From the NCBI GenBank assembly GCA_030052745.1, contig JANBVO010000048.1:186001-250000 (forward strand): a stretch of 64,000 nucleotides of DNA, given 5' to 3'. Position numbers and translations under genes: made by a program. Positions 23,618-55,554 of the stretch are shown here, piece by piece. A model generated the notes under the pieces. That model saw only the letters and a program-made list of their open reading frames with translations, was not told the DNA's origin and searched no databases. The stretch's first letter is position 1, and each line of letters opens with the position of its first letter. The DNA is from Pleurostoma richardsiae (Eukaryota > Ascomycota > Sordariomycetes > Calosphaeriales > Pleurostomataceae).

Positions 23618-24916
23618 CTAGGGCACTCGCGGAGGCGGGGGGCTCCTTGTAATATCTGCAGAGCTCTCACGAGAACGCTCGACAGGACTTCCCCACACGT
23701 CACTAGGACTTGAAGGAGGGCCCATTCTCTGGAATCTTCTCTCTTCAGGCATCATAGATGCAGTGGCACCATCGCCCATCGTCCGAGACTCCCGAGGGGC
23801 ATTGTCCTCGGGGTCCTCATCACCCCACCCCATGATATCGTTACCGTGACCCCACACATTTGGGGGGCCAGGGACAGGGTCTTCCCCAGAAGGTGGTGGA
23901 GCCGGTGCATTCATTGATGCCAGCTTGTTCCTCCTAAATTCCTCCACAGCGGCTGCAATACGACGCTCCGTTCCACGTATCAGGTGAGCGGGATCCGCGT
24001 CGACCCAGAATAGAACAAGCTCTTGGACCTCAACCAGACGTTGCATCGTTTCGATGCTCGCGGTCCTAGGATCCTTTGGGAGCGGCGTGTGACCGGGACT
24101 TTCGTAGTCGTAGGTCTTCCATAGCTCCTTCTCCCGCCATTCTGTGGCAACATATTCCATGGAGAGGGGATAGCCTCTCGAGTCGTCGGGATATTCCTCT
24201 GCCAATGGCGGAAAGCTTCGCATCAACGGAAACATCGGCTTTCTTGCCCGACGTGCAACTAAGAGGTCTTCTATCTGCCGGTCTGACATGTTCAGGACTT
24301 GGTCACATTCATCGAGGAAGTGGTCCAAGGTGTTGCAGGCTGGACAGCCTTGCATGTAGCCGCGGGCATCTGGGGGACCGACACAATCCGCAAGCTTATG
24401 GCTCGGTTGGCCACAGTTGGCGCACGGGTTTAGAAATCCGTACAATCGTGGCCAGTGGGGAGTGGTGATGGTAATGTCCACGGTACGCCCACTTTGAATG
24501 GCTTGGTCGACAGCAAATTCCGTCATTTCGAGCGCATTTTCCAAGCCCATTTCGTTGACATGTATGGTAAGCATAGGTGACTGCGCCTGAGGACCTCTTG
24601 GGTGTGGCATCTCCTCAGCGTATTCATTGACTAAGGTGGTAGTGTGGCCGTTTAAGACCACGTAGTTACTTGGCCGCTGTGCCTCGTTTGTCCTTGGAAC
24701 TTGGTATGCGGGAAGCTGGACGGTCTCGCCATCTTCTTGATCAGAACGAGCCCTCTTGGTGCTCTTGTTCATGCCGGTCTCCTTCTGGGAGTTGCCGGAG
24801 CATTCATTGTTCTTCGTGCCGGTGTCCTTTTGCGGATCGACCGGTTCGTCGCCGTCCTTGCCGGTCCCCTTCTTGGGGTTTCCGGGATGCTCCTTTTGGG
24901 AGTTCTCTCCAGTCAT
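23618..24916 (-). CDS. Double CCHC zinc-knuckle protein, family member 1 (unknown function)
   Basis: Single exon, 432 aa, start at the only ATG at the head of the frame. Residues 1-50 are low complexity with drifting repeats of the type GNSQKETG. Two canonical CX2CX4HX4C knuckles lie at Cys165-Cys178 and Cys191-Cys204, joined by a linker with GPP and GY. They are followed by a block conserved in the other two copies of this window: ARRARKP, a PDD, GYPLSMEYV, EW, KELW and KDP-T. A second conserved-looking region precedes the knuckles (TIHVNEMG). The C-terminus is Pro/Ser-rich and unstructured. Knuckles of this kind bind single-stranded RNA or DNA, so a nucleic-acid role is likely, but no family function is known to me. 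Paralogues lie at 26872 and 35284. Confidence 0.82.
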   Translation of the reverse strand: MTGENSQKEHPGNPKKGTGKDGDEPVDPQKDTGTKNNECSGNSQKETGMNKSTKRARSDQEDGETVQLPAYQVPRTNEAQRPSNYVVLNGHTTTLVNEYAEEMPHPRGPQAQSPMLTIHVNEMGLENALEMTEFAVDQAIQSGRTVDITITTPHWPRLYGFLNPCANCGQPSHKLADCVGPPDARGYMQGCPACNTLDHFLDECDQVLNMSDRQIEDLLVARRARKPMFPLMRSFPPLAEEYPDDSRGYPLSMEYVATEWREKELWKTYDYESPGHTPLPKDPRTASIETMQRLVEVQELVLFWVDADPAHLIRGTERRIAAAVEEFRRNKLASMNAPAPPPSGEDPVPGPPNVWGHGNDIMGWGDEDPEDNAPRESRTMGDGATASMMPEERRFQRMGPPSSPSDVWGSPVERSRESSADITRSPPPPRVP

Positions 24917-25160
24917 TCTTGCGTTGTTTTCCCAATGCTCAGCACCGGGGACAAGGGTTCTTCTGTGTCAGGAAGGTTAGGCAGAGCAGTGGGAGGATGG
25001 TGGCGGAAACGTTGTTGTGTTGTGGTGGAGGGGAGAAGGAAGGTGAAAGAAGAGCAGCGCGTCAGGCTGCAGGTAAACGAGCAACAGAGTGGAGCGTGCG
25101 AGTGGGCATCTGACCTGCTCAATGCTCGAGGTATCTAGGTACCTAGGTGAGATTCTAAAT
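24917..25160. promoter_or_regulatory. Promoter of knuckle gene 1, with TACCTAGGTGAG motif
   Basis: Between 25127 and 25150 the sequence reads GGTACCTAGGTGAG after a related TATCTAGG, about 215-235 bp upstream of the ATG at 24916. The helicase-like gene at 31525 has the same motif in the same orientation and distance (33918-33941). Nearer the gene is a leader with GCGTCAGGCTGCAGGTAAA (25056-25075), matched in part by GTCAGGTTGCAAAGATAAA at 33808-33826. Confidence 0.55.
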
Positions 25161-26871
25161 TTTCAGGTGAGATAAAAGTGAGACGCTCGTCGAGGTCCTC
25201 GGCCGGAACGATGAGAAGGGAAGCAAATATGTCTGATGTACCAATCTAAGCGAGGAGCATGCTATGTATCTCCAAGTCTCTATAGGAGCAGTTGTCACCG
25301 CATGCTCTTTGCCTACCGGCTGCGAGTACCTAGGCATTGACACGGTTGTGAGATGCCGCTGTCTGGACCTCGTTGGTCTAGGCTCTCGTGGTGGCCCGAC
25401 TTTGGGCTTTCGGAGAAGCGTCCAAATTGAGGCTTTTCCGGGACCTCTGCCAGCAAGCCATACAAGTGACTGTTTGGGTCAGGAAGAGGATAAAGAGCAA
25501 TTTACAGCTAAAGCCTTTGTTTATGCTGGGTTGCTCTCAGTCCCAGTCTCTGAGGGCTGTTTCTCTGTTTCTCCAAGAGCATCTTCTGGTCTTCCAGCTC
25601 CCCTCCTCCCGTCGGTCTTGGCCGTCCTGGAGCTGCCTAGCTTCCTCCTCTGAGAACAGCTCCTGGTCCCCAGGTCGCTGGCGCGAACCGGCTGAGTATG
25701 TTCCCGTTCGACCTAAGCTTGCAAGTGGTGGTTTATTTGGGAAGAGTGGCATCGTGGTACCCAGGCTGGTGGGGTAATGAGGGATGTCGAGTGGTAACGT
25801 GCCAGCTGAAAACATACAAAGTCAGGAAGGCCGACCAGGAGTGGGCTGGACACAGTAGGGTACCTTTTTGACGAACACACGAAGTCGAGAAGAAAGAAAG
25901 GAGGAGGGAAACAGCCTGCTACGTGGCAGGGCAGTTGTGCCATAATCACGCGCAGAGCACGTGATATCTACGCTCCATGATGTATCTGGCAGCCGGCCGG
26001 TTGGTATCTTCCTTCTACAACCTCGTCTGTCAGCTCGAAGGCTCCGTCTCCAGCGCATCCCAGGCCGATTGCAACGTGAGGGCCTTCCTTTGTCGTTCCG
26101 CCGCGTTTCTCACGGCCGGGGATCTTTGACCCTTCATACGAGTCATTCTGTCCGGTGTTGTTTCTTTTCTTCCCACCCCTGTGTGCATACATGTAATGTA
26201 GAATTGAATGTGAAATAGAAATGGGAATGACTGGTACGTGTCTAGACCGCTGTTGGTGGTCAAGGGCTAAAGCTGGTTGGCTTCTCGGTTTGCTCGTTCA
26301 GAATAAGGTAAGGGTTGTTGCGAGGCGATAAAGCATTGAGACTCAAATCCACCAGGAAGGAACCAGCCTCCTTTTTATACAATGCGGTCAGGATCGAAGC
26401 TAATAAAGCGAAAGTTTAATTCGCTGGAGTGAGATGGGTTTATTCAATAACTTCCAAGGACATCGGGCTGCAAAACTATGGCCAGTTGCCTGCTTGTAGA
26501 AGCCAACAAGACACGTCAAACACCCGTATCTGAGTGCCTATACAATCAGGCACACTGTTTTCCAAGCAACAAGACTCACTGTGTATCTAGTACCAAGTCC
26601 CTAGTAGGCTGAGCCACAGGTGAGTTCAGGGTGACAGAGAAGTCCCGGCTCTCAGTGGAAGCTGATGGAAAAGCTGTTGACCTGCTTGCCTCAGGCACAA
26701 ATACCAGGTGTCCCTCAGCCACTTTCTACGGTATCTCATCTTTGTCCTTTTTTATCCTTGCGCTAGAGACTCTCCACCATCACAACACCACAACACTCTG
26801 TCCTCTTCGTCCTCTCTACGAAATTCTCCGCGCGCTCTCTCACGGTCGAGAACAAAAACGATCAAGAAAAA
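25161..26871. other. Intergenic between knuckle genes 1 and 2
   Basis: About 1.7 kb. It contains one recognisable relic on the minus strand (26001-26115, separate entry). The rest has several long but unrecognised frames on both strands around 25380-25800, none convincing. The right end is the pyrimidine-rich leader of knuckle gene 2. Confidence 0.45.
26001..26115 (-). pseudogene. Frameshifted fragment of the 28813 gene
   Basis: The minus strand here aligns base for base with 28861-28975 of the two-exon unknown gene. The shared start reads VRNAAE-QRKAL and, after a one-base deletion, the next frame continues ELTDEV-E-RYQ. No start codon, no second exon and no continuation, so this is a broken partial copy in inverted orientation. 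Confidence 0.75.
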
Positions 26872-28275
26872 ATGAGCGGAGATAATCCTGACCTGGATAA
26901 TCGCGAGAACTCTGCAATGGAGTCCAGGCCAACAAACGAGGGCGAGGCTGCCCATGGGGACTCTCCAAGAGACTCTCAGCAGAATGAGAATGGCAACGTA
27001 TGGCGACAAGACAGAGATGAAGATGGAGACGTTGCTCAAGAGCCCAGAAGCGCTGTGGAGGGAGAAGAGTCCACCATGCAGTACGGTGGCATCACTGTTA
27101 CGATAGCGCGACCCACAACTAGGGACTATCTACCAGGTCCGATGCCTGCACTGGACCTCTTCAACGAGCCAGTGGATCCTAGAGTCCGGAACCAGGCATA
27201 TCGTTTTGCCAACGGCTCTTGGATCTTCATGAGAATGGAGCGCAGGCACATGGAAGATGTGATGGCCATCATAGAGCAGAACTGGCTGGACCCTGACGCG
27301 CGGCTGTCCTTTTCTGTAAACTGGACGAACGCAACGCAGGTTCCGTCCAGCCTAGAGCAGCCCGAGCAGCCCGAGCAGCCCGAGCAGCCAGGGCAGCCAG
27401 AGCAGCAAGGACAAGAAGCACAAGAACACCAAGAAGAGCAAGATGATAAATGTGCAAACTGTGGTCGCGAAGACCACAGGCTAGTTGACTGTGTCGGGCC
27501 ACCAAACAAGTACGGATACATCATAGGATGCCCGGCCTGCAATGACGTGGGTCACTTCCCAGATGACTGCTTGAAGATCGGGGCGATAGACTTCCAGAGC
27601 AGGCATGACATGTTTGTTAGACGGCGGGCCCGAAAGCCCATACTCCCGATGAGGAGCGGCTGGCTGAACATGGCCGACGCTTTCCCTGACGATGAGACAG
27701 GATACCCACTGTCTATGGAATACGTGGTCAGGGAGTGGGCAGCAAAGGAGTTGTGGAAAAACTACAACTACAGTGATTCGGCGGTAGTTCAGCTGGAGCG
27801 GGACCCGGCCACATACTCGCTCGAGGCTACGAAGGCCTCGGTCAGGAGAGGTGATATATATCTCCACTTTGTTCCCAATGTCTGGGACGAGCGCCGCCGC
27901 GGGGTCGCGGTGGCAGGCACTATTCCGCGAATGCGGCGCATTCTGAGCGAAACAGTCTGGGCGAGAAAGGCCCAAGATGCAGCTCGGAAGGCTGAAGGCG
28001 CAGACACGACAGACGCACTGTCGGGTTCGAACTCCACTACATCGGTCTCATCTGTTAACAGCCAAGCAGAACAGAGCGGCAGCCAACCCGGCGAGAAAGC
28101 CACGGGCACAGGCTCGCTCCTAGACGGTGCGATGAGCACCTCGGCGACCGCGGGTCAGGACGATTCGCTTGACGGGGTCACGCCGGGTGAGGCAGGCCTG
28201 TCTCGGCCCAAGTCAAGAAGAAATAAGCAGTGCGGAAAACTGAGGTCCAGGCACCGTAGAAAAAAGACTGATTGA
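26872..28275 (+). CDS. Double CCHC zinc-knuckle protein, family member 2 (unknown function)
   Basis: Single exon, 467 aa, with the ATG at 26872 after an A-rich leader. The first 75 residues are acidic and disordered. Residues 80-150 form a folded-looking segment with NGSWIFMRMERRHMEDVM. A Gln/Pro/Glu run of EQP repeats (residues 161-190) leads to knuckles at Cys194-Cys207 and Cys220-Cys233, each CX2CX4HX4C. The shared block follows: RRRARKP, FPDDETGYPLSMEYV, REWAAKELW, ERDPAT. The tail is Ser/Thr-rich and ends in a strongly basic stretch (RSRHRRKKTD) that could be a nuclear localisation or RNA-binding signal. Closest in the block to member 3 at 35284. Function unknown; nucleic-acid binding is inferred from the knuckles. 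Confidence 0.84.
   Translation: MSGDNPDLDNRENSAMESRPTNEGEAAHGDSPRDSQQNENGNVWRQDRDEDGDVAQEPRSAVEGEESTMQYGGITVTIARPTTRDYLPGPMPALDLFNEPVDPRVRNQAYRFANGSWIFMRMERRHMEDVMAIIEQNWLDPDARLSFSVNWTNATQVPSSLEQPEQPEQPEQPGQPEQQGQEAQEHQEEQDDKCANCGREDHRLVDCVGPPNKYGYIIGCPACNDVGHFPDDCLKIGAIDFQSRHDMFVRRRARKPILPMRSGWLNMADAFPDDETGYPLSMEYVVREWAAKELWKNYNYSDSAVVQLERDPATYSLEATKASVRRGDIYLHFVPNVWDERRRGVAVAGTIPRMRRILSETVWARKAQDAARKAEGADTTDALSGSNSTTSVSSVNSQAEQSGSQPGEKATGTGSLLDGAMSTSATAGQDDSLDGVTPGEAGLSRPKSRRNKQCGKLRSRHRRKKTD
27349..27412 (+). repeat. In-frame GAGCAGCC microsatellite-like tract
   Basis: Nine-base units (GAGCAGCCC with variants) encode the EQP run of knuckle protein 2, immediately before its first knuckle. 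Likely length-variable between strains. Confidence 0.7.
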
Positions 28276-28812
28276 TTAATATGAAACGGAAGTAAATACG
28301 GAAGAGTTCTTGCCAAGTATCCAGGGAACATGGTCTAGCACTTTCCTGAGCAGGAATTTGAAACTCTTCTCCGCCTAATGCATAGATCTCAGCGTGACCA
28401 TGCCATGTGTTATACCCCGTAACAAGTGATGGTGGCTTTGTGCCTTTGTCCATAATATGTTCCGGGCGCTATAACTAGCTAGGTGTTTCGTCAATTTAAC
28501 ACGCTGCGGCCGAGAAGTAATTCTAAGAACGAAGTGAACTCTTAGTGCAGTGCCCCGAATCTGAGAGCGAGGTAAATTCCGGGTACAAGGGTCCTCACCT
28601 ACTTAGAAGCCTGAGGCTGTGACAATCTGAATCGGTTTGTTTACGGCCGACGCCCTCTTCTCCCATTTCTCTCCTCAGAAAAACACAACCTTTCCGATTC
28701 TCTAGCCCTTGACCATCATAAACCAGACACGTACCCACCTTTTTTCTTTAATTTTCCCTTTCAATTACAGAAACAGAAAGAGAAAAAAGAAACAGAAAAA
28801 CAGGATAAAAAT
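28276..28812. other. Intergenic and leader, no gene seen
   Basis: Between knuckle gene 2 and the next gene. The last 150 bp are CT-rich then A-rich, a typical fungal promoter and leader. No other coding frame. Confidence 0.5.
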
Positions 28813-29858
28813 ATGTCATCGGACAGAGTGGCCTCAATGGAGGCTCAAGAGATTGCCGACGTGAGAAACGCGGCGGAGCAACAGAGGAAGGCCCTCATAT
28901 TCCAGTCGGCCAGAGATGCCGCTGGAGAAGGAGCCTCTGAGCTAACAGACGAGGTTCTGGAAGCCAGATATCAAAAGAAGGTTGAGGCTGTCTGCAAAGA
29001 ATGGTATGAGAAGGGACGGTACAAGCCCCCTCGATCGGCCTCAAAACTCTACTTCTTCGCCGATCTCTTTTTCTGCAAGGACAACTGTAAGCCTGCCGCC
29101 CCTTGACCGCTTCTAAGATGCTGACATTTTCTTTACCAGGCCACTCTGTTCCTTACCCGTGGAAGGAGGAGATGGCGGCGATCCACCAGCTGGACAAGCA
29201 GGCAAAGCCGCGTTCGCCAGAGTACGCAGCTTACTGGTTAGAGCGCGAGTTCACTGCCTTCAAGAATGAAGTGATTGAACAAAACAATGGCTCTGAGCCA
29301 GAGAGAGAGTTGTACGAACGGCGGCGCGCCGAAGATGGCGAAGAAGAGCGGCAGCGTGCCGAGAGAGAGCAGGGTGGCAGCAGTGCAGGCAGTGTCTGTA
29401 CGGTTGCGCGGCCATCCTGGACGATCAGGAAGGCGCACCCAGATGCTATCGTTGACCCAGCGGTTCTGGAGCATATCTGGGAGAAGCTTTTCCCCGACCG
29501 TCGGCCGGGAAGTCATCTTCAGGAGGGAACCAGGCCCTTCGAGGTTATCTTCCCAGCCTCCACGAAGAGGCTCAGGGCGCTAGCAGGCATGTTTGGCGCA
29601 GAGGCAAAGGATTTGCTACGAGATGCCCTCCCCGAAGGAGTGGTCGTCTATCATTCTCCGCCATGGAGCATTTTTGTCTCGGCGTCCAAGATGGGCGCCG
29701 ATATCTCGAAGTGCGCGTTCCTCGCGCAATGGAGCACAGTCTTCTGCGTTGTCCGAGACTGGTGCATTCATATCAGGCATAACCCCCTGACAGAATGGAC
29801 TTTGCCAGAGGCATTAGAGGCAGGGTTCTGGGACCAAGTGTCTGCAAACGCGGTCTAG
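28813..29858 (+). CDS. Two-exon gene of unknown function
   Basis: Exons 28813-29086 and 29140-29858, intron 53 nt with GTAAGC donor and CAG acceptor; 330 aa. I do not recognise the family. The N-terminal third is a charged helical region (NAAEQQRKALIFQSA) with an aromatic segment after it (ASKLYFFADLFF). An acidic/basic coiled stretch lies in the middle (ERRRAEDGEEERQRAEREQG). The C-terminal 130 residues look globular, with VVYHSPPWSIFVSASK and a Trp-rich end (WSTVFCVVRDWCIHIRH). No signal peptide or membrane segment. A broken partial copy lies at 26001-26115, so the gene belongs to a family that duplicates in this region together with the knuckle genes. Confidence 0.65.
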
Positions 29859-30567
29859 GCTGCGTCACGGCAGGATGGATATGAAAGGGGACTGGTGGAA
29901 GAGCGCCAGCGGAGAGAGACTCAAGAGTGAGTGCGAGGCAGAGCGCGTCCCGGGACGCGGCTCGCGGCAGAAATGTCCTTCGCATACTCGGGAGCACTAA
30001 GCAGATAGATGCCAAGGTGAACTCGGTCTACCTGCGCTTCCACCCCTTCCACTCCTCTCGCACAGTCGTCTATTTGTGAAAATCCCATGCTCCAATCCCG
30101 TTTCATTTCTTACTTGCTCAGAGATAAACAGGTTCGGCCACCCGCAGAGCTCGGTGACGGCATCACCAGTATTGACACGCAACCAAACCGCTCCTCGCTC
30201 AAGAGCAATGTAACTGCATTTGGCGGCCTTGATCAATCATACCCTCTTTCTCAGAGACCACCGACGTCTGAGGAAATGTGATGAGGTTCGTGCGCATTCG
30301 ACTTATGTTAATGCGAGACTTTTCCTGTCATGAAGAGGGCCCCGCAAGTTCCCGTTGCAAGTAACTGACCGTCGGATATCGTGCAAATGATTGGTTTTCT
30401 GCCTGTCATTGGTTGTAGTTACCTATCGTGCCCGGTGATTGCGGACTTAAATGCGTGGGAGCTTCTAAACTCCGCTGCACGTGTGGCATATAAAGTTCTT
30501 GGCATTCAATGAGAGCCATGCAGGTCATGACATAGCAAGTCCACACTCATCCCACCGCCAAAGCAAG
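29859..30567. other. Intergenic, no gene seen
   Basis: Space before the PEBP gene, including its promoter. No coding frame with support. Confidence 0.5.
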
Positions 30568-31150
30568 ATGCCCGCCAACGAGAGCGTCAAGAAGGCGCTG
30601 TCCCTCATCGAGGGCGACAAGTCCAAGGTGCTCGGCCTCAAGGTCGGCCAGCACATCGTCGAACCCGGCCAGTACATCCCCAAGGCTGGTAAGACTCAGG
30701 ACATTCTGTGAGAGACACCGCTGATTGGCTGCAGACGCGCAATCGCCGCCCGAGCTGTCCTTCGCCGTGCCGTCGCTCTCGGCGACCTACCTGATCATCG
30801 GCCTCGACATCGACGCCCCGTTCCCGTCACTCGACGTACTCGGACCGATTCTGCACTGGATCCAGCCAGGTCTCAAGGCGGAGCCGGCCGACGGCACGGC
30901 CCCGGTTCTAAAGGGCACAGAACCATTTGTCGCGAACTACATTGGGCCCGCTCCACCGCCAGGCAGTTCGCCGCACCGCTACATATTCTTCCTGTACGAG
31001 CAGCCGGCGGGCTTTGACGGCAAGAAGTACGCCCCCAAGGACGGGAAGCCGTTGAGCAACTGGAACCGCATGAGGGCCAGCCTGGACAGCCTGGAGAAGG
31101 AGTACAGCCTGGGGCCGGTGCTGGCGGCAAACTACTTCAAGAGCAACTGA
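30568..31150 (+). CDS. Phosphatidylethanolamine-binding (PEBP/YbhB-like) family protein
   Basis: Small cytosolic protein of the PEBP fold, 178 aa. Exons 30568-30688 and 30735-31150, intron 46 nt; the junction gives KADAQSPPEL. Family ligand-site features are present: the DIDAPFPS segment with its Asp-x-Asp-x-Pro pattern, then LHWIQPG (usually HW at this site) and, after the loop, YIGPAPPPGSSPHRYIFFLY, which matches the GPxPPxGxxHRY signature. Relatives include carboxypeptidase Y inhibitors and kinase-regulating proteins; fungal roles vary. GC-rich coding sequence with regular codon use, unlike its knuckle-gene neighbours, so it may simply be a resident gene among them. Confidence 0.92.
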
Positions 31151-31524
31151 TGCTCCGTCTCTTCTCAAATACGTCCCTGTAGCTTTTCGGTGTCTTTGTC
31201 AGCCCTTCTCACGTGTAAACTGCGCCAATGTTGAGGGCCCTCCTGAACCTTTTCGCGCAGACAATTCAACGTGTAGGAAGACAGTTCACATAGGCCGCGG
31301 CCAGATCACCCAGTCCGTCTAGACGTCACGCCTCAATTTAGCGGGCTCGGTGGAATACCTGGAAACATCTCATATCGACAAATCCCTTGAAAAGGCTGCC
31401 ATGCGCAGGCGGGTTGGAGGTAGGCGACGTGCCAATCGACAAGCTGGGAGCACAAAGGACGAAGCATTCAGGGACAGAATCCGTGCTGGTTCACAGCTAC
31501 CCTATTATCATATATCCAATAATC
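31151..31524. other. Intergenic, no gene seen
   Basis: Tail-to-tail space between the PEBP gene and the helicase-like gene. Confidence 0.5.
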
Positions 31525-33702
31525 CTATCTAGGCCCCCGGAGGATCTCCATGAGGCCAATGCCAGGTCTGTTTCGGCGGAGGACCCTAACAACGTGCTCG
31601 ACAGCATCTGCCGACACCATTGTGAGCCCACCGGTGAGGTATTCGCCACTGTGCCGGTCTCTAAAAATCCCGAACTGCAGGGCGTAGAGCTTATCCACCC
31701 GCAGTTTCTCCAACTGGCGCCAAGCGTCAAGGTAGGGGCAGCAATTGCCCAAGAACCGCCGGGAGGAGAGGTGTATCAGCCGCAGTCTGGCGTTATCGCT
31801 GTCATCATCCACGATGTCTCCGTCGATATCTATGCCGCAAAAGCAAAATTCGGTCAAGTTGAAGAAATAGGCGTGCAGTAGGCACCGCTCCACCTGTAGG
31901 ACCTCGCCGGGTGACAGCGGGGCCTCTAAGTGCCAGTGTGCCGCGTTTCCCGCTATCTGTAAATCCGTCTCAAGGGTCGTGATCAGCTGGAACGCCTCGG
32001 CAAAGTAGCGTTCTCTCACTATTACTGGATCATCTCTGCGAGTCTTTGCTCGCACGCGCCGCTCGTAGTAGACTAGGGCGGTCCAGAGCGCACCCCTGCT
32101 AGAGTGGCCCCTTAGCACGCCCTCTGCGGCGCCCTCGACTGCCTCACTGAGGTCGAGTGGAGGGTCACCTGCAGGCCCTGCCTCCTCGAGCTCGTCTTTG
32201 GGACATATCAGCATGTCCACCTTGACACGGAGGACCGCGACCATGCGGATCAGCGTCTTGGCTACACGGAGCGACATGTCTTCAATCTCAGTAATTAACG
32301 CGAACAGAAGCGCGGGTCCAAACTCTTGGACCATCTGCAGCGCCCTGAACACTCTCAACCCGAAGCCGGGCGTCAACTCATACCCGTCCGGCCCAGTAAC
32401 GACGCATCGTAGCTCCGCGAGCTGGCGCCGGGTTTCTAATGCCGCCTCTAGGCACGTTGTGGTCTCCTCGACCGGGACATCGGCGAGTCGGCGGCCCGGC
32501 CAGTACGCTATAGCCTCGAAGACCAGCTCCATCAGATCGCGCGTCGCGGCCCACGAGTGAGGCCTCTGCAGCCGATCATCTGGCCAGGCCGCAAAGACGA
32601 CAGTTCTCGTGGCATGAAATTCTGGGTTGTTCCATGCCGGGCGCGGTAATGCCAGGTACGCCCTCGTGTTTTCGAGCTCCTGCTCGGACCGGGTCACAGT
32701 AGTCAGGACTGGCTGCCTTAGCACGGTGTCCCATTCGTGCGCCTCCATATCCGCCGACACGATGATATCTATCGGCCTGCAAAGCGGGTACATCAGGCCC
32801 AGCCCGACATCCGTTTGCATGTAACCTACCCCAGCCCCGAACCTCATCATGTTCGCGATATTTTCGTGCGAAAACAAATCCAGTTGGAGATTCTCTAGCT
32901 GGAGTAGCTCACATCCACGCATTTCGTCTCTGTGTGCCTGACAGATGATGAACGCGGCGATGTGCTTACCTCTGCTGACAGCAAGAGATGCCCGTGCCTC
33001 AACGGCCGCGTCATACAGCTGACGAAACGACACCACCCGCGATTCGTGGTCAGTACTTGTTACAACCTCCTTATATTCGCAGCGGGCGACCGCCTCGGCT
33101 GGGCCAAATTCTCCCGCTTCCCCGCCTCCCAGGCAGATATGCGTTCCGAAGCTCGCCCGCATGAGGTCACCCCAGAACGATCGGTGGCGCAGCGTGGACA
33201 GTATTATGAGGTTGATAGACAGATCCTCAGGGCTGCCGCCCTCGTGTACCCTCGCCTGCGCCCAGTCGGCAAGCACACCCATGCAGAGCGCGACATTTGC
33301 ATCGTACAGCGCGGCATGTGGGTCGAGTATAACGACGAGGCGGCGGCTCAGCCGCATCTGCCGAACGAGCCGCTTGAGAAGCCTGAAGGTCATGACCTTA
33401 GTCGACCCTGCAGCCGCCCTTGCTTGGGCATAATAGCCGCAACGAAAATTCGCCTGCAGATTCAACTCGAAGACGATGCATTCGAACTCCCTCGGGAGTG
33501 CGATAATCACTTCAAACGGCCTTGTAGCCTTCGCGACCTCGCCCATGACGACGCTCGCGATTTCTGTTCTCGACCAGATGCCCGGCCGGCAGACAATGTC
33601 CATCGACATGACGCCGCCTCTGGCAAGGCGGAAGTTAAACCGCCTGCCGTCTTGCATCGACGGCTGTCCGTGCCCTTGTGGCAAGCCCTGTCCTGTATCC
33701 AT
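31525..33702 (-). CDS. DEAH-helicase-like protein lacking catalytic motifs
   Basis: Single exon of 725 aa. By eye the order of blocks follows a DEAH-box RNA helicase: TKVMTFRLLKRLVRQ where helicases have a T-x-G-x-LLR motif Ib, then VVILDPHAALYDANVAL in place of motif II (DPHA instead of DEAH), LIILSTLRHRSFWGDL in place of motif III (SAT changed to ST), KHIAAFIICQAHRDEM like motif IV, VGYMQTDVGLGLMYP like motif V, and SEQELENTRAYLAL where the arginine-finger motif VI should be. No GKT Walker A is present near the N-terminus. A helicase-associated-like helical region follows (ADVPVEE to LIRMVAVL). Family assignment is inference from pattern, not a search. ATP hydrolysis looks unlikely, suggesting a structural or binding role. 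It lies among the knuckle genes and shares a promoter motif with one. Confidence 0.6.
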   Translation of the reverse strand: MDTGQGLPQGHGQPSMQDGRRFNFRLARGGVMSMDIVCRPGIWSRTEIASVVMGEVAKATRPFEVIIALPREFECIVFELNLQANFRCGYYAQARAAAGSTKVMTFRLLKRLVRQMRLSRRLVVILDPHAALYDANVALCMGVLADWAQARVHEGGSPEDLSINLIILSTLRHRSFWGDLMRASFGTHICLGGGEAGEFGPAEAVARCEYKEVVTSTDHESRVVSFRQLYDAAVEARASLAVSRGKHIAAFIICQAHRDEMRGCELLQLENLQLDLFSHENIANMMRFGAGVGYMQTDVGLGLMYPLCRPIDIIVSADMEAHEWDTVLRQPVLTTVTRSEQELENTRAYLALPRPAWNNPEFHATRTVVFAAWPDDRLQRPHSWAATRDLMELVFEAIAYWPGRRLADVPVEETTTCLEAALETRRQLAELRCVVTGPDGYELTPGFGLRVFRALQMVQEFGPALLFALITEIEDMSLRVAKTLIRMVAVLRVKVDMLICPKDELEEAGPAGDPPLDLSEAVEGAAEGVLRGHSSRGALWTALVYYERRVRAKTRRDDPVIVRERYFAEAFQLITTLETDLQIAGNAAHWHLEAPLSPGEVLQVERCLLHAYFFNLTEFCFCGIDIDGDIVDDDSDNARLRLIHLSSRRFLGNCCPYLDAWRQLEKLRVDKLYALQFGIFRDRHSGEYLTGGLTMVSADAVEHVVRVLRRNRPGIGLMEILRGPR

Positions 33703-33960
33703 GGTTTAAGGTGCGCCTCAGAAAGTCAAATCAGGTTGCGAAACGAAAATATGGAGTGGAGGGGGATGAAGTGAGGCTGGGGAAAGGGAGAGTGGAGGGT
33801 GGAGAGAGTCAGGTTGCAAAGATAAAGGCTGGAGGGACTTGGGCGCTTGCCTGAACTGAGGAAGGTGCCGGTAAGGTGAGGGCGTGAGGCAAGGTCAGGG
33901 AAGGTACTACCTCCCTATCCAGGTACCTAAGTACCTAGGTGAGTTTAGATGAGGGTCGTG
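33703..33960. promoter_or_regulatory. Promoter of the helicase-like gene, with TACCTAGGTGAG motif
   Basis: 33920-33941 holds AGGTACCTAAGTACCTAGG followed by TGAG, about 218-240 bp upstream of the ATG at 33702. The same element occurs at the same distance before knuckle gene 1. Confidence 0.55.
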
Positions 33961-35283
33961 ATGCAACTCCCATGTGCTCCCTCGACAAGACAGGTTGCTG
34001 GCAGCAGTAGACGGCACCAGCAGCCAGTCACCTGTCAACGCCCCCGCGGCTCGTGGATACACATCACCAACTCGCGGGTGTCGCATGCCCCTCCCATCCA
34101 CCATCTGGTGCCGTCCCCATCATTACAGGGACACGTTCTCACATGAAAACGCGAGACAACAAGAGACACAGGATCAAGGCTGCCAGAGGAAGCCTGGCGA
34201 CAAGGTATGCCCACGTGGTTCGCGACGTCTGGGCCTCCTGGTACGACGATAAAGTTGGATACGGACGGCATTCGGCTCCCAACGAAGGTGTCCCGTTCCT
34301 TGATCGACTGTAGTGGAAGGATTACTGTAAGATGCGACTCGAAGTTGGCTTACCAAGTCCAGCCGCGGGAGATGCTGGCTAAACAAGCCCCGAAGACGAG
34401 GGGACAGCTACAAGAGCATTGCGGAGTGCCAACGCGGGCCTTCTCGAAATCTCATAAATACGATGTGGGCGAGGTGTGCAACTAATATCTGCTCGCAGAA
34501 CAGGGACTACCCACAAGACAGGAGGAAGAGAATCATGGCAGCTACCCAACCCACTGAGCTCATGCGAAAGCAGACCAACTCATACCACAATTCCACCATC
34601 GAGCGATTTAGGTAGCGGGAAGCCCCAGCCAATGACTACTACAGAGGCATGACAACCTCCTCCAACAGCTTCCCCAAAGCTTTTCTAGCTGAAGCTGCAG
34701 TCAGTTATGCCTCTGACGCCCCTTTGACAGCTTTAGTAGAGTCTATAATGATGATTTTCGGCGAGTGTCACCCACGCAGACCGCCATTACACAAAGAAAG
34801 CGGAGCAGCTTCTGCCATCCATCCATCCATCCATCCATCGAGAGTGCGATCCTGGTGCTGAGTGACCATTCCTCCTTGAAGTTGTCTAGCCTAGGGTAGC
34901 CCGTGATAGAGTCAACCTGAGTGTGCTGAGGTAGAAACCACTCGAGAAAGCTCGATGTCATCCTATGGTGCAGTGGCCGATCTTCCCGCTGCCATCTTGA
35001 ATCTCTGACTATGGGGCAGGTGCCGTGCAGGACGACAGTGGGCACGGGAGTCTGCTACACCCTGAGGCATCACTCTCACATCGGCTCTGCAACGCATCTG
35101 CCTAAGGTACTTTATTATTTTATTTTCGCCCGCGTCGCCCTCACCTCGCGAAAACTCTCCCACAACACAGGAGACCACACCACCCCATCTCTTTTCGCGA
35201 CATCCACCTCGACCCCATCGACAAAACCATCGCGATTTTGTAGCGCTTTCTTCCCCGGAAGAGACACGAAAATCGGAGAAGCA
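33961..35283. other. Intergenic, no firm gene
   Basis: About 1.3 kb. Frames around 34050-34490 are unrecognised. It contains a CCAT microsatellite (separate entry). An open frame from 35011 runs into knuckle gene 3, but its 91 codons upstream of 35284 have leader-like composition and are left out of the gene. Confidence 0.45.
34815..34838. repeat. (CCAT)n microsatellite
   Basis: Six tandem copies of CCAT. Possible strain marker; no other role. Confidence 0.9.
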
Positions 35284-36798
35284 ATGGAGAGAGAAAACCC
35301 GGGCAAGGACGGGCGCAGCATCTCCTGGGAGGAGTACGCGCAGAGAGAAGTCGAGGGGAGCCGTGGCACCTCCAGGAAGGACACCCGGCTGACCAACCGT
35401 GGCAACTCCGGCGAGGAGACCCTGCAGGACAACCGCGGCAGCTTCGCGCAGGAGGACGCGGAGATGGCCAAGGGCAAGAGACCCCGAGAGGTCGATGAGG
35501 TAGAGGAGGGAGAGGTGACGAGCTCCGAGGAGCAGCGCCTCGCCAAGTCATCGCGCATGGCAGCCGACCAAGCCCCCGGCAGATCCTCATTGAGGCCTGA
35601 CGGGACGGTGCAGTGGGGAGGGCTCAAGTGCAAGATGGTCGACCTTGGGACGGTGAGGCCGTCGAACATGTTCCTCGCTCGGAAGACCAATATGCCGTCG
35701 CTGGTCCCGTGCGGCCTGGGCTCACGGTCAACGGATCGAGGGATCGTGAACGAGGTCTACGGCTATGTGAGTGAGACAGGAAGTCGGTCCATGGCCGCAG
35801 TCAATGTCGAGAAGAACGTCTTCAAGGACGCGACCAGTCTGGCGGACTGGGAGATGAATGACATGCCCGAGGGCACACTGACGACCATGACGGTGCTGTA
35901 CGAGGCTCCAACAAACACTGGCGCGATGGCCCAGTTGAGGAGGCTTCGGAGATTGAGGAGGAGCGACGGGGTGTCACAGCGGCCGCGAGCCCTTGAGAGC
36001 GTCGAGCAGGCAGAGGCGCGCGACAAGTGCGCGAACTGCGGTCGAGCAGACCACGAGCTGGCAGATTGCGTTGGGCCCCCGCAGAACCGAGGGTACTTCA
36101 TCGGTTGCCCGGCTTGCAACAACCAGCGCCACTTCCCGGACGAGTGTGGAGTGGTCAACGCCATGACTTCCGAGGAGAAGTGGGATCTGTTTATCCGGTG
36201 TCGGGCCCAGAAGCCGTCTTTCCCGACGCGGCAGGGCTGGCTGGCTCTGGCACGAGAGCACCCGGACGACGAGCTAGGGTATCCACTCTCGATGGAGTTC
36301 GTGGCGAGAGAATGGGCGGCGAAGAAGTTATGGGAGGATCATAACTACGGAGCGCCCGCTGGGCCGCAGCTGGAGCGAGATCCGGCGACGGAGACACTGG
36401 CAATCACAGAGGAGTCTGTGAAGGAGGGTTGCATCAAGGTCGCTTTCGAGCCGAGCAAGCGGGATATGCAAGGCCAAATCCTACACGCGGGCACCACCGT
36501 GTACATGGATCGTATGTTGAGAGATCTCGAGGCGCAGAAGAGACAGGCGCAGAACAGCGAGGGCCAGTCCATGGCGGACGCACCCTCGGGCTCGGGCCTG
36601 GCCATGTCTGCCTGGGCAAGGCGCCCAGGAGCACAGCATCCAGGTGCCAACCGAGCCGGTCCTTCGTCTACAGGACCATGGATGTCGAGCCTCGACGGCC
36701 GGCAGCAGAACGCGCGCTTGAGAGATGTCTCGAGCATGGACGAGATTGCGGCCCAGTTGAGCGGCTGTCTGGATGCGGACACGGAAATGCAGGAGTAG
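35284..36798 (+). CDS. Double CCHC zinc-knuckle protein, family member 3 (unknown function)
   Basis: Single exon, 504 aa from the ATG at 35284; the frame is open upstream but the leader is not protein-like and 35284 matches the start position style of the paralogues. Residues 1-95 are highly charged and disordered, with a KRPRE basic patch. Knuckles are at Cys249-Cys262 and Cys275-Cys288 with the same CVGPP...GY...GCPAC linker as the others, followed by RCRAQKP, HPDDELGYPLSMEFV, REWAAKKLW and ERDPATE. A pre-knuckle segment (residues 105-215) is longer than in members 1 and 2. The tail contains Gly/Ala/Ser-rich sequence and ends acidic. High GC and strongly biased third positions, unlike member 1, so the copies are old or have evolved at different rates. 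Function unknown. Confidence 0.84.
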   Translation: MERENPGKDGRSISWEEYAQREVEGSRGTSRKDTRLTNRGNSGEETLQDNRGSFAQEDAEMAKGKRPREVDEVEEGEVTSSEEQRLAKSSRMAADQAPGRSSLRPDGTVQWGGLKCKMVDLGTVRPSNMFLARKTNMPSLVPCGLGSRSTDRGIVNEVYGYVSETGSRSMAAVNVEKNVFKDATSLADWEMNDMPEGTLTTMTVLYEAPTNTGAMAQLRRLRRLRRSDGVSQRPRALESVEQAEARDKCANCGRADHELADCVGPPQNRGYFIGCPACNNQRHFPDECGVVNAMTSEEKWDLFIRCRAQKPSFPTRQGWLALAREHPDDELGYPLSMEFVAREWAAKKLWEDHNYGAPAGPQLERDPATETLAITEESVKEGCIKVAFEPSKRDMQGQILHAGTTVYMDRMLRDLEAQKRQAQNSEGQSMADAPSGSGLAMSAWARRPGAQHPGANRAGPSSTGPWMSSLDGRQQNARLRDVSSMDEIAAQLSGCLDADTEMQE

Positions 36799-37260
36799 GC
36801 TGCTCTCCCGCACGGAGACGAAACGCCACTGCGGTGGTAGGACTACGGTCCGTTGAGCACAACGTTGTGCCTGTTTCAATAGGAAATTGAGAATGATTAC
36901 CTGTCGACCTTTAGCCTACACTTACCCGAAGCTCCCCGTGACCGCCTGTGACTGGTCGTATGTCTTCTTCCCCGCCTGAAATGCCAATCGACGTGACTCT
37001 TCTTTTCCCACTCCGGCCGGTCTGCTACCGTTGTAGTTGTTGCAGTGGGTGCCACAACTGCCAAGTCCCTTGTATATCGTTCACACCCATGGCATCAGGT
37101 TGGTATTGTAGGACTCTACTACTCAGAAAGCTTCATGTCGGCCACTAGCACATACGAGAATTTCATTGAGCCTTACACCGAGAGGCCGCCGAGACGGGTT
37201 CTTGAGTGCGCCAGACCCCTCCGTGACTCTAATCCATGGCGGCCTCCTGTGCACACATGA
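36799..37260. other. Intergenic, no gene seen
   Basis: Between knuckle gene 3 and the palindromic satellite. No coding frame with support. Confidence 0.5.
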
Positions 37261-38400
37261 CAGCTCCATGACGAGGGCCGCCGTCAAGCCTTTCAGGTAG
37301 ATAAATAAGCCGCCATGGGGCCGATTTATATAGGAAAATGATCGCCATGAACTGAAGTCATGGCGGCCCTATTCCTACCTAAAAACCCTTCATGGCGGAG
37401 GCCGCCATGAGGCCGATTTGTATGGGGAAAAGGCCTCCATCAACTAAATTCATGGCGGCCGATTTGCCAGCTAAGAAGTGGTCATGGCGGCGTCGCCATG
37501 AGCTTTAATTTTAGGTGAGAACCAAGGCGTCATGAAAGTAGTCCATGGAGGCCATTTTACCACCTAAATACCCTTCATGACGGCTACCTCCATCGGCTTA
37601 ATTCGTGTAGGCCGTAAGGCGTCATAGCCTCAGTTCAGGCTCTCGTAAAGGCCTCGCCATGAGCTCGATTTGGGTGGGAGATAGGCCGCCATGACTTTAG
37701 TTCACGGCGGCCATTTCACCACCCAAAAACCCTTGATGGCGGCTTCCGCCATGAGCTTGATTTGGGTGGGCCGGAGGCCGCCATGAGCCCGATCTAGGTC
37801 AACTATAGGCCGCCATGAACTGCTTTCATAGCGGCCTCTAGGCCACCCAAATCAGGCCCATGGCGGCCCTCGCCATGAAGGCTTTTCAGGTGGCAAAATG
37901 ACCGCCATCAACCACTTCCATGGCGGCCTAGTTTACACCTAAATCAGGCTCATGGCGCCCTCTACTTAAGACTCGCCATGACGGCTTTTAACGTAATAAA
38001 ATGGCCGCCATGACTGTGATCCATAGCGGTCTCCAGCCCATATAAACCAAGCCCATAGCGACTTCCGCTATGAAAGCTTTTTAAGTAGTAAAATCGCTGC
38101 CATAAACTACTTTCATGACGGCCTGCCGCCTACCTTAAATGCCTTCATGGCGGCCTCCGCTATGGAGCTAATTTACATAGAAGAAAGGCCGCCATAAATC
38201 ACAGTCATGGCGGCCTTTTCTCAACCTAAAAATCCGCCATGGCGTTGTAATATTAAATTATAGTGAGGCCACCATGGAGCTGATTTGTATGGGGAAAAGA
38301 CCTTCATGAACTAGAGTCATGGCGGCCTCTGGCCCACCTAAAAAGCCTTCATGGCGGCCTTGACCCTACCTACGTCAACTCCATGGAGCTTATTTTTTTT
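37261..38400. repeat. Palindromic CATGGCGG/CCGCCATG satellite, left block
   Basis: About 1.1 kb in which CCGCCATG and its complement CATGGCGG alternate every 20-45 bp. Pairs form short hairpins around an AACT-x-AGT centre (for example GCCGCCATGAACT facing AGTCATGGCGGC), set between AGGTGGGAAAA or ATTTGGGTGGG spacers and their complements. Units are 40-90 bp and much diverged. No reading frame is kept, so this is a structural repeat, not coding DNA. It ends at a poly-T of ten. Confidence 0.85.
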
Positions 38401-39296
38401 TTAAGTAGGCTACAGGCTTATACACACTGTCGACATTTTCGGCGTCAGAAGCGACGAGTTATACGCCCATGAGGGCCACAGGAAGGTAATGCTCTACGTG
38501 ATTCGAGAGCCTAAACAACGGTAATGTTACGAGGTAGAATCGCACAACTCTGGATCAATCAGAACGTGAAAGACACTACGGGCTCCCTCACAGGGCTTTC
38601 GAGAACACATGCTGCGCGAGCTAAGAATCTACTAGCCGTGCTGTCGGACTCAGCCGCGAGCGAAGTGTCCTGAACAACTGGCGGGATCAACATCTCGGAG
38701 CGTTGTATCGTAAGTGCCTTGAGGTTACTCGTAATGCGCGGCCCGGGCGTCTGATAGATAGCAGCCATATCCTAGAAAGCCCGTCATACCCAGCCAGGAG
38801 CAACGCTACAGAGACAGCGGATCCTCCCCCCTTAGAGCGCGACCACCATAGCATCGGCGCCGGCCAGGGGACAGAATCGTAGCTGCGATTGTGCGGTGTC
38901 TGCGGCACGACCACCCGACCATCCAGGACGCAGCATGCGACAGCACATTCGCCTCCTACAGGAAGGCCTCTGCTGCGCTATCAACTCCAGAGCCTAGGTG
39001 TGCCCTCCGTCGAAGTGATCGATGATAAGCTCTGACTATGGCGTGGACTTCGTTAACACGATAGCCTTCGCGACCCTCCGCTTGCTAGGTATGCCGAACG
39101 TTCACATCCGCGTAGATTATAGAATAAAAGTGAAGGAGCCAGCAGAGTTGAAGTTCCGGCCCTCGAATGCAATCTCCATACACCAGTCGCTGTATTGGAA
39201 CGGTCTATTCCTTAAGGAGCTGAGCCGCCGTTTAGACTGACACTACGCGCGTCGGAAATGAAGAAAAGCATAAGGACCGCAAGTCGGCAAAGGAGC
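38401..39296. other. Non-repeat segment inside the palindromic satellite
   Basis: About 0.9 kb of unique-looking sequence that separates the two satellite blocks. A plus-strand frame at 39022-39240 (72 codons, ATG start, ordinary composition with a Lys/Arg/Leu-rich end) is the best coding candidate but matches nothing I know. The segment could be an insertion or the original DNA that the repeat invaded. Confidence 0.4.
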
Positions 39297-39900
39297 TCAT
39301 ATAAGTCGACTTCGTGGCGGCTTTTTAGGTGGGAAAAGGGCCGCCATGAACTGAAGTCATGGCGGCCTTTTTCCTATACAATTAGCTCCATGGCGGCCTC
39401 GCCATGAAGCCTTTAAAGGTAGTAAAATGGCCGCCATGAACTACTTTTATGACGGCCTAGCTCCTACCCAAATCGAGCCTATGGCGAGACTACCATCAAG
39501 TGCATTTATGGCGGCCATTTCACTACCTAAATCAGGCCCATGGCGGCCCTCGCCATGGAGGCTTTTAAGGTGGTAAAACCGCCGCCATCAACTGCTTTCA
39601 TGGCGACCTTTTCTCCATATAAATTAGCTCCATGGCGGCCTCGCCATGAGCTTTATTTGGGTAGGTGGCAGGCCGCCATGAACCACTTTCATGGCGGCTC
39701 TTTTCCCACCTAAAAAGTCGGCATGGCGGCCGCCGCCAATGCTGCCATGGGCTTGATTTGCATGGAGTAAAGGCTTTCATAACTCAAAGTTATGGCGGCT
39801 AACTTCCTAGCTAAAGAGCCATCATGGTGCTCCTTACTAGGATTCATTCATGGGAGCTAGCAGCTAAACTTCTAACATGAGAGGCCGTCATGGCCTCCAT
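39297..39900. repeat. Palindromic CATGGCGG/CCGCCATG satellite, right block
   Basis: Same unit as at 37261-38400. The clearest hairpin is at about 39339-39373, where GGGCCGCCATGA and TCATGGCGGCC face each other across about seven bases, extended by AAAA/TTTT. The block fades out into TCATGG-only copies near 39900. Confidence 0.85.
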
Positions 39901-43002: not shown

Positions 43003-46000
43003 ATGGCACTTATCAAACCGCAAGCCGAGGTTGCAGTCGCAGACCAGGTTATTCCGGGGCCCGTAGTACTGGCAAGACGGAACCTGACAGTCCGCATCGA
43101 GGGCATTCCTCTTGATCACATAGATACCTTAGAAGACAACATCCGGTCCATCGTCAACTCTGACCTGCACGACACTATTGCAACCTTGCGACGGCGCTCT
43201 CTCGTTCGCGGGCACCAGCCCGACCGCATGGCCACAGCCACTGTCACTGTCGAGACGGCCATTCTCGGAGACGAACTCTGCCGGCAGCTGGGCGAGGCTC
43301 GCGGCTCGTCCCGGTACCCGTACACCTACAGTTCTCGATTCGAGGGTATCACCCCAATGTATGAAGGCGAGGGCAACGCCGTCGTGGAGTGAGCTGCATC
43401 TCCCCACATAGACGTGTACCTGCTGACTCTTCCAGCGTCGTCGCAGTTCCCGGGCTGGCGAGCCACGCCTTCGGATCTTGGAAATCCCAGAATAATGACG
43501 ACATCTGGCTTTGCGACTACCTACCCAAAGACATTCCAGAGATTCGAGTTCTGCTCTACGGGTACGATACAAGGCTGCAGAACAATCTGTCCAAACAATC
43601 GATTGAAGATCTAGGCGTCGATTTTCTTGAAAGCCTTGTTGCGTTCCGGGCGCACGACGGCGTACGTGACCTGACACGCCTTTTGAGCAAGCTAACCATG
43701 TATCAGACATGTCGCCGCCCGATCATTTTCATCGGCCACAGCCTAGGTGGCCTGCTCATCAAAGAGGTGCGCACCCTCCTCTTATGCGTGTCCATCCTCC
43801 TAACGTCCTACAGGCACTTGTGCACTCCTTGAAGCAGACAGGTGACCCCGAAAAAGTCAATATGTCACAGAGCTGTTACGGAATGCTCTTCTTCGGTGTT
43901 CCGAACTTCGGCCTGCGGAATGAGCAGCTCATCGCCATCGTCCAGGGGCAGCCCAACGAAGCTTTGATACGTCAGCTAGTTGTCGATAGCGACATGGAAC
44001 CCTCCGCGTTCCTGCGGAGAATCTCAGAGGAGTTCTGTCGGACCTGCGAGGGTCAATACAAGGTCGTGTCCTTCTTTGAACGTAGATCTAGTCCGGTGGT
44101 TGAGGTGAGACATCCCCAGAAAAATCGGAGAGTGAAGCGCTGATCACGCATCTAGGTTTTAGACGGCAAACTGCGAAAGACAGGAAACCTGTGTCTGTTG
44201 GTGACGAAGGAGTCCGCTACAAGCATGGGCCGAGCTGCGAGCGATCAAGACAATATTCCCTTGGACACTGATCATTCAGAGCTTGTTAAGTACAGCTCGA
44301 GGAGCCAAGCCCCCTATACCATCGTTAGGCGACGCCTGGGGAACCTTATTGCTGGGGCCCAGGAAAATGTTCCCAAGCGCTTCGCAGCAGGGTGTATGTA
44401 ATCCAGAGCCAAGAATGTAGTCCGCCTTGTGCTGACCCTCGCAAGCTTCCCAACAAGCGATTGCCAAAGATTACCCTAGTATGTACCTTACTAGGCATGC
44501 CGAACCAGGACTGACGTTTGTTAAGGATTGATGGAAAGCGCGGAAGCCACAAAGACTTTTGGCGGTCAGGATCCGCCATTGATGCCAGCTTTGAAAAGTC
44601 CTGTCTCGGCAACGTACCATCATCTAGGTGACATGCCTAGCCTTGACCGCTATTACCAAGATCAGCCCAGCATTGATAATGTGATTTATGAGTTCTGTTC
44701 GTCAACCGATGAGTATCGGAGCAGGACGTTGCTTCTTCACGGATTGGCTGGAAGAGGAAAAACACAATCCTGTGTCGCATTCATGCGAAATGCGACGAAA
44801 TCAGTCGGGAGGTGATTAGAGAACGAGTTTTGCATACCCCTAGCCGTTCAGACTGTCATTGACTAACAGATATTAGGTGGTCTCGACTCATGTGGTTGAA
44901 TGCGTACAGCCCAGTGGCCTTGTTCGAGAGCCTTCGAAGCCTCCAGGAGGACCTTGAAATACCTAGGCGGCATCAGACTGCATCCGAATCAACCAGGTCT
45001 GCAGAAATATTCAAGGCGATCGGAGAGGACGTGAGGAAATGGCTGTCGTCACAGGAAAAGCCCTGGCTGATGGTGCTAGATCATCTTATTCTGGAGGAGT
45101 CTATTCTGGAGGACTCTGAGATGCGTGGGATGATCGACTCTCTGTGCAGGTCTGAGAAGGGGCGGATTATCATAACAGCACGATGTGTCTTGGACGAATG
45201 GTCCACGGACCAAGAGGCTAAACATGCTGTCAGGCCCATGGACCCGAAATCAGCCTCGGAGCTAATACGCCGCCGTTTGTCTCCTAACGATTTCTCTACC
45301 GAAGATGAACAGAACGCTAGAGAACTTTCCCGGCTTCTAGACTTTCTTCCTCATGCCATCTCCCTTGCTTGTGCCAAGATCAAGAATGAGAAGATCTCGA
45401 TCCTGTCGTATATCAAGCGCTGGCGCGAAGTTTTTGGCGAGCAACCGAAGAATATTATAAAGTCTGCTACGGACCAATCCTTGAACGGCTCCTTGAAACT
45501 GTCTTATGAGTCTCTGAAGCGGAAAAGGTCTCCTGGCGTTGAACTCGTTGCTGCAGATCTGTTCAAAATTCTGGCATGCTTTAGCGGCTCTCATATCTCA
45601 GAGGTCATCTTCCAGCGAGCCTGGGAGGTAGCGTCATTCGAAGAAAGGCAGCCTCGAGACGAGACACACGAAGAAGATACCTGGTTCAGCAAATTCTGGC
45701 AGTTCCTGCTTCAACGCCCTTGGCAGGACACTCAACCCGAAGTCATCAGAAGCAATCAAATGAGCACGCCGCTTTTGATTCGGGAGTCTGGAGAGACTCA
45801 GTGGCAAGGCTCTACTGCCCAAAGACAATTTCGTGCTGCCCTCCGAACACTGGAAGACTATTCTTTTCTCGAATTCTCAAGCGACCCGAACAATTGCGAG
45901 ATCAAGATATCGCCGTTCATTCAAGCATGGATCCGCTTAGATATCCATGCATTAGGATTAACGGAGGCTGAGGACTTTCACAAAGCCTGGCGGCAAGCGT

Positions 46001-52055: not shown

Positions 52056-52600
52056 TGTTCTTCATTCTCTCAATACTTGAACCTTGGTTGTGATACACTA
52101 GAAGAAGAAAGGAATCAGGATTCAGTCGTGGTCGACGGTTGAAGATTGCAAGAAATCTAATGACTAAAGGGTCAAGGCATACATATTTTGTCAAGGGTAA
52201 TCCCTACATGGACACCATGTCTTATCTTCGTCTAACGCACTATTACTTCAACATTTCTAATTCTTAATTTATGAGCTTTCTTATACGTTTCCTTACTTTT
52301 ATATAGAGCAGTTACATCTCCCACAGTCAAGGCCTTTTTACAATCCTCCCGGGCCAAGACCCGGAAAGCACATGTTAGTACTATGATTCGCTTGATTCAA
52401 CAAATTCGCGACAGAGGATATCCAGATACCGGGCCTTCGATTAAGAAGGGGCTCAGCCACCGGTAATATCACGAGCTCCTTGCTCGTGTAAAGGCCGACA
52501 GCAAGCTGGGTAGCTTCTTCTATGGTAGTCTTCGGTAAGTGGACATTGTATTTAGTTGGACGAAGAGAGTTGATTGAATCTGACGGGAGGTAAAATTACT
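52056..52600. other. Intergenic, border to the AT-rich region
   Basis: Downstream of the membrane protein gene. Base composition falls sharply in GC from about 52580 on. No supported gene. Confidence 0.5.
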
Positions 52601-54328: not shown

Positions 54329-54439
54329 TACTACAATAAATTAAAGCTTATTACTTAAGTTAATACGTAGGTAATCAAGACTAACTACGTAGAAGTTTAC
54401 ATAAACTAAAATATAACGTTCAAGTTAAGATATTAAGTA
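54329..54439 (+). repeat. LTR-like repeat B, partial copy
   Basis: About 111 bp matching the first half of the copy at 63080, with G-to-A and C-to-T changes (start TACTACAATAAA against TGCTACAATAAG). Truncated on the right. Confidence 0.8.
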
Positions 54440-54499
54440 CTGTAAGCGTAATAAGGATATTAGTAATTAGTCCTTAAAAAAGGTTGGTTTCTATTAATA

Positions 54500-54780: not shown

Positions 54781-54994
54781 AGCTATTCCTACTTGCTAGC
54801 CTTTAGGGTCTTTCCGTTCTTAAATCGTCGGTAAAATAAGTTCTTAAACGGTTTAAATTTAATCGCTTAAAGAAAGTTTAATTATACGCTTAATTCAATG
54901 ATATTTCCTAGGCCTTTTAATTACTTAATTAGTAGGCCTTTTAACGCGTTTCCGACCGCGTTTTCCTATTAATTTTACTTATTTTCCTAAACGT

Positions 54995-55500: not shown

Positions 55501-55554
55501 TATAAATTAAATATTATGCCGTAAATACTTTCTTATAAATCGGATATTAATAAC

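Follow-up and report, generated by a model that had tools for sequence, protein, structure and literature searches.

What kind of family is encoded by three neighboring genes whose proteins each carry a pair of CCHC zinc knuckles? We address this question for a stretch of 64,000 nucleotides from Pleurostoma richardsiae (contig JANBVO010000048.1, positions 186,001 to 250,000; hereafter the window), in which the genes that we call genes 1, 2 and 3 are located (Table 1). An earlier note on this DNA had considered that the knuckles and the clustering of the genes could mean a domesticated retroelement or a nucleic-acid-binding system of defense or genome rearrangement. In our analysis, this tempting story gives way to a testable one, that of an old fungal family with atypical knuckles.

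Table 1. Genes, knuckles and neighboring reading frames of the locus, in positions of the window.
Feature	Position	Strand	Remarks
Gene 1 (P0001)	23618..24916	-	single-exon ORF, 432 aa
Gene 1 core	24062..24424	-	121 aa (knuckle pair, linker and shared block)
Gene 1 knuckle 1	24383..24424	-	CANCGQPSHKLADC
Gene 1 knuckle 2	24305..24346	-	CPACNTLDHFLDEC
Gene 2	26872..28275	+	single-exon ORF, 467 aa
Gene 2 core	27451..27813	+	121 aa; block without knuckles, 27571-27813
Gene 2 knuckle 1	27451..27492	+	CANCGREDHRLVDC
Gene 2 knuckle 2	27529..27570	+	CPACNDVGHFPDDC
Neighbor gene behind gene 2	28813-29858	+	two exons, 330 aa; intron 29087-29139 (by eye)
725-aa ORF	31525-33702	-	no Pfam match at E <= 0.1
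Gene 3 (P0002)	35284..36798	+	single-exon ORF, 504 aa
Gene 3 core	36028..36390	+	121 aa
Gene 3 knuckle 1	36028..36069	+	CANCGRADHELADC
Gene 3 knuckle 2	36106..36147	+	CPACNNQRHFPDEC
996-aa ORF	44890-47880	+	only a sub-cut-off Pfam match

The shared core and the termini of the proteins

According to our ORF check, each of the three genes reads from ATG to stop without interruption in one exon; at the gene 3 locus, the longest frame starts upstream of the gene 3 ATG, at 35011. The features by which the family had been recognized hold up in all three genes: the proteins possess exactly two CX2CX4HX4C knuckles, the distance from the first Cys of one knuckle to the first Cys of the other is constantly 26 residues (leaving a linker of 12 residues), and the block PDD..GYPLSMEYV..EW..KELW..DP.T is present. 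From knuckle 1 to DP.T, the core aligns without gaps over its entire length, with pairwise identities of 49.6% (genes 1 and 2), 52.9% (genes 1 and 3) and 61.2% (genes 2 and 3). When the core of gene 2 was searched against the whole assembly (39,432,242 bases in 136 contigs), it matched three loci, namely those of genes 1 to 3, with E values of 1.6e-53 for gene 3 and 2.1e-41 for gene 1; its block alone, comprising 81 aa after removal of the knuckles, still found both, with E values of 1.6e-26 (gene 3) and 2.4e-19 (gene 1). The similarity of the three cores is far beyond chance. Searches with the gene 3 core, the gene 2 block and the core of P0003, a relative introduced below, returned nothing beyond genes 1 to 3 at E <= 10 in an assembly search that scores the best candidates only and ignores introns, so that a split copy might escape it.

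The termini had been described as unrelated and the GC contents as strongly different, and both descriptions are correct in part. As far as tested, the termini of gene 1 bear no relation to those of genes 2 and 3, with shuffled sequences scoring as well in 119 and 235 of 1000 cases for the N-terminal and in 603 and 993 of 1000 cases for the C-terminal parts. Genes 2 and 3, in contrast, do resemble each other outside the core, as their N-terminal score was reached in two and their C-terminal score in none of 1000 shuffles. Likewise, gene 3 stands apart in its GC content (0.630, with a GC3 of 0.776), whereas genes 1 and 2 hardly differ (0.558 and 0.568, with GC3 values of 0.589 and 0.618).

A beta-alpha-beta element ahead of the knuckles in genes 1 to 3 and P0003, an idea that came from a MAFFT alignment and the low-confidence secondary structure of gene 1, was dropped, as the profile scores were no better than those of shuffled sequences. 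A profile of genes 2 and 3 scored nothing for gene 1, and its score for P0003 was equalled by 656 of 1000 shuffles; a profile of genes 2, 3 and P0003 was equalled by 512 of 1000 shuffles when applied to gene 1, and one of gene 1 and P0003 by 592 of 1000 for gene 2 and by 620 of 1000 for gene 3.

Age of the duplication and selection on the core

The pairwise pS values of the cores of genes 1 to 3 (0.753, 0.725 and 0.760) fall into the range obtained by random pairing of codons (0.72-0.77), while the corresponding pN values (0.324, 0.306 and 0.247) are far below those of random pairing (about 0.73). From pS at the random level and pN far below it, we infer that the duplicates are old and that the protein is under purifying selection. 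The earlier view that the family is no recent tandem duplicate is thus borne out by the saturation of synonymous sites in the core, and the check for purifying selection that had been proposed along with it turned out positive, with a protein that has remained conserved despite this saturation. Judged from their sequences, genes 1 to 3 are a paralogous family of unknown function that was duplicated anciently and locally.

Relatives of the family and its place in Pfam

Our protein database searches returned three proteins in all: P0001 (gene 1), P0002 (gene 3) and P0003, a protein of 376 aa from another genome that was found with an E value of 2.2e-19 with alignment A2 as the query. This count of relatives is a lower bound, since the sensitivity of the database searches was poor, one of them missing P0002 and another P0001 although both are in the database. 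The core of P0003 is 38-45% identical to those of genes 1 to 3, so that P0003 has its gene outside this assembly. None of the eight zinc ligands is lost in P0003, the signatures DCVGPP and GCPACN are retained as well, and GSPWSPEF takes the place of the GYPLSMEY or GYPLSMEF of genes 1 to 3. With P0003, the family reaches into another genome rather than being absent from any other species. Viral contigs (scanned twice), prokaryote genome contigs and phage and plasmid records yielded no relative of the family; as these collections are non-fungal, their null results bear only on a viral or bacterial source. The same null result was to be expected from NCBIfam, a prokaryotic library, which has no match for genes 1 to 3 or P0003, and Rfam gave no match at its gathering score within the window.

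No named domain had been known for the block when the family was first noticed. Yet the precomputed Pfam label PF27939.1 is attached to all three returned proteins (gene 1, gene 3 and P0003; gene 2 was not among them), and through this label the block probably does match a named Pfam domain. As nothing but the core is demonstrably common to these three proteins, PF27939 most likely spans this region, and the family is probably already catalogued in Pfam under this accession. In the Pfam version that we scanned, which is without the PF27939 model, neither genes 1 to 3 nor P0003 had a match above cut-off. A literature search yielded no paper naming PF27939, and the displayed text of the papers listed by our searches contains no description of the family of genes 1 to 3.

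Retroelement descent

If the gag gene of an LTR retroelement had been domesticated and retained as a host gene, the gag-like twin knuckles of the family would find an explanation, and the assembly does hold LTR-type reverse transcriptase matches elsewhere as well as a decayed element with a reverse transcriptase match on the very contig of the window (C80). Several findings nevertheless render this reading very improbable. No gag family in Pfam matches the three proteins at E <= 1, which leaves them without a gag or capsid domain upstream of the knuckles as far as Pfam has models for such families and these get through the HMMER filters; moreover, the conserved block sits after the knuckles, and core and block are found in the assembly at genes 1 to 3 only. 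The single RVT_1 match on the contig, out of 24 in the assembly, is interrupted by nine internal stops (window 59779-60210); it is the closest listed reverse transcriptase match and is about 23 kb away from gene 3. It lies in an island that starts at about 52 kb and is marked by RIP, with a TA/AT index of 1.34-1.60, whereas genes 1 to 3 are without a RIP signature (0.35-0.60). The contig has none of the five RVT_2 and none of the six integrase (rve) matches of the assembly. A gag search of the assembly with PF03732 was empty, but as its control search was empty too, it carries no weight here.

The other knuckle-bearing loci of the genome were examined as well. Our CCHC search of the assembly gave 30 matches, among them gene 2 and two others that do not exceed the Pfam cut-off. 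Thirteen CCHC loci and two reverse transcriptase loci (L037 and L038) were translated, and 11 of the 13 CCHC loci gave frames with the strict motif, which by eye we take to be Gis2-like, branchpoint-binding, Mpe1-like, Slu7-like, Air-like and helicase proteins. BLASTP comparison of these 11 loci with the three proteins produced matches at E < 1e-3 exclusively in or beside the knuckles, none of which reached the block, and a few weak ones elsewhere (E >= 0.005). With the three blocks as tblastn queries against 55 fetched loci, the best E value outside the loci holding genes 1 to 3 or parts of them was 0.22. The domesticated retroelement that had been contemplated for this locus hence finds neither a gag domain, nor a listed reverse transcriptase or integrase match adjoining the genes, nor further copies in our searches of the assembly. 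Descent of the family from gag is unlikely, and a very old descent of this kind is still conceivable.

The surrounding locus and a possible role in defense

From about 52000 to 64000, the window consists of a GC-poor island (19-27%) that has a strong RIP signature and harbors the decayed reverse transcriptase match; over the final 9.8 kb of the contig, GC has recovered to 50-61%. Closer to the family, an inverted and decayed copy of the 5' part of the neighbor gene behind gene 2 is found between genes 1 and 2, at 26001-26157 (79% identity over 159 alignment columns), from which it can be concluded that the locus was rearranged. The second-exon ORF of this neighbor gene has no Pfam match above cut-off. 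The 996-aa ORF further downstream resembles, by eye, part of a fungal NLR-like protein.

Genes 1 to 3 could be fast-evolving genes of self/non-self recognition or genome defense that are clustered by a repeat-rich region. The clustering of paralogues whose ends have diverged is compatible with such a role, as are the local rearrangement attested by the inverted 159-base piece of the neighbor gene and the RIP-marked island, but the core is conserved and displays no rapid change, no HET, NACHT or nuclease domain is present among the Pfam matches of the three proteins, and the contig end that we inspected is without a telomere-like array. We consider a defense function of this kind improbable, and for defense or genome rearrangement in general the analysis gave no evidence in either direction.

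The chemistry of the knuckles

The CX2CX4HX4C pattern of zf-CCHC (PF00098) is satisfied twice in each of genes 1 to 3 and in P0003, and this is the classical spacing of nucleic-acid binding. PF00098 is one of the enriched domains listed in PMC5915685.

Proteins of this kind might be sequence-specific binders of RNA or ssDNA in the manner of nucleocapsid or LIN28, with both knuckles gripping short single-stranded motifs and mRNA regulation as the outcome. The exactness of the spacing, its occurrence in duplicate at a fixed distance, and the weak profile resemblance to nucleocapsid and LIN28 speak for this possibility, which we nevertheless judge to be somewhat unlikely in view of the details of the knuckles. 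All PF00098 scores stay under the curated cut-off of 20.8 bits (13.6 for gene 1, 15.9 for gene 2 and 9.7 for P0003), and for gene 3 no PF00098 match was listed at E <= 1. The best sequence matches in the PDB, obtained with alignment A8, are retroviral nucleocapsid/Gag, LIN28 and ZCCHC8, all of them non-significant (E values of 0.026-0.97). HIV-1 nucleocapsid p7 and LIN28 resemble the family in their two tandem CCHC knuckles, as seen in weak profile alignments (E values of 0.026 and 0.086, respectively), but the family differs from both by the extra conserved block behind the knuckles. In the weak alignment with p7, the family has A and P where the nucleocapsid has F and W, and its 12-residue linker is five residues longer, contains at most one basic residue and is without a basic run. 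ZCCHC8, a protein of nuclear exosome targeting, likewise provides a weak, non-significant profile match (E values of 0.034 with A1 and 0.29 with A8), whose A8 alignment covers 26 positions and thus about one knuckle only.

The eight knuckles of genes 1 to 3 and P0003 are kin by descent and hence a descriptive rather than an independent sample. Position 2 is occupied by an aromatic residue (F, Y and W, with H counted in) in none of them; the first knuckles have A there and the second ones P. Gly before the His, present in 23 of 25 other knuckles of the genome, occurs in only two of these eight, which on average contain two more acidic than basic residues; the net charge of the knuckle pair amounts to -3, -3 and -2 in genes 1 to 3. 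The 25 others, distinct strict CX2CX4HX4C motifs from the remaining loci of the assembly CCHC search, are balanced in charge, and at position 2 nine of them carry F, Y or W (12 if H is counted). As most of these are thus also devoid of F, Y or W at this position, the missing Gly and the acidity constitute the sharper differences.

The aromatic residues of nucleocapsid knuckles stack on bases. Since the knuckles of the family have no such stacking aromatics and are net acidic, nucleic-acid binding in the manner of retroviruses is not a safe inference, and the standard guess of nucleic-acid binding is thereby weakened, though not disproved.

Predicted structure and proposed mode of action

We place a probability of roughly one half on our main reading, according to which genes 1 to 3 represent a small cellular family of a filamentous ascomycete that arose by old local duplication, is kept under purifying selection and is predicted to function as an adaptor. 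Zn2Cys6 and fungal transcription-factor domains detected with Pfam, together with the RIP-marked DNA, fit such a host. A structural model of the gene 2 core attained moderate confidence (mean pLDDT of 66, pTM of 0.63) and says little because its alignment comprises four sequences only; in it, the block is mostly helical and is followed by a helix-strand-strand-helix element, and the knuckles are less confidently placed (pLDDT of about 46-61 in blocks of ten). Fold searches against solved and viral structures gave no convincing match for the core.

In the proposed adaptor, each knuckle would bind one zinc, and the two knuckles would form one stiff module together with the conserved VGPP...GY..GCPACN linker. 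The helical block behind them would complete a docking surface, while the variable, mostly unstructured ends might attach partners or set the location of the protein. Such an adaptor could work in a ribonucleoprotein or another nuclear complex, where its twin-zinc surface would hold on to either a protein or one specific RNA. Given the absence of stacking aromatics and the acidity of the knuckles, docking of proteins by the core appears about as likely as direct binding of RNA or ssDNA. A more far-reaching proposal, which we regard as rather unlikely, holds that the paired knuckles were turned from base-stacking nucleic-acid binders into a rigid acidic twin-zinc module for protein docking, which was joined to a helical block specific to fungi and underwent local expansion in a filamentous ascomycete. 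If the twin-zinc core does dock proteins, automatic labels of the type "CCHC, nucleic-acid binding" would be wrong for this family.

Sequences flanking the genes

Comparison of the 600 bases upstream of each gene gave a score for genes 1 and 2 that was reached by one of 300 shuffles, as opposed to 209 for genes 1 and 3 and 21 for genes 2 and 3; the best upstream piece of genes 1 and 2 is a simple, CACCACAACAC-like stretch 25 bases long, and we attach no weight to this similarity. On the downstream side, self-comparison of the region from 20 to 44 kb revealed an CATGGCGGCC-type array behind gene 3 but none at the other two genes. When the segment 37230-37970 was used as a DNA query, it found 13 matches, all of them within C80:223230-225738, and no relatives elsewhere in the assembly. 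The array to which this segment belongs extends from about 37134 to 39892 of the window, starts some 340-440 bases behind gene 3 and is built from units of roughly 92 bases that are rich in CATGGCGGCC in both orientations; it contains 36 of the 44 CATGGCGGCC matches of the window (with at most one mismatch), for which the mean of the shuffled whole window is 3.06.
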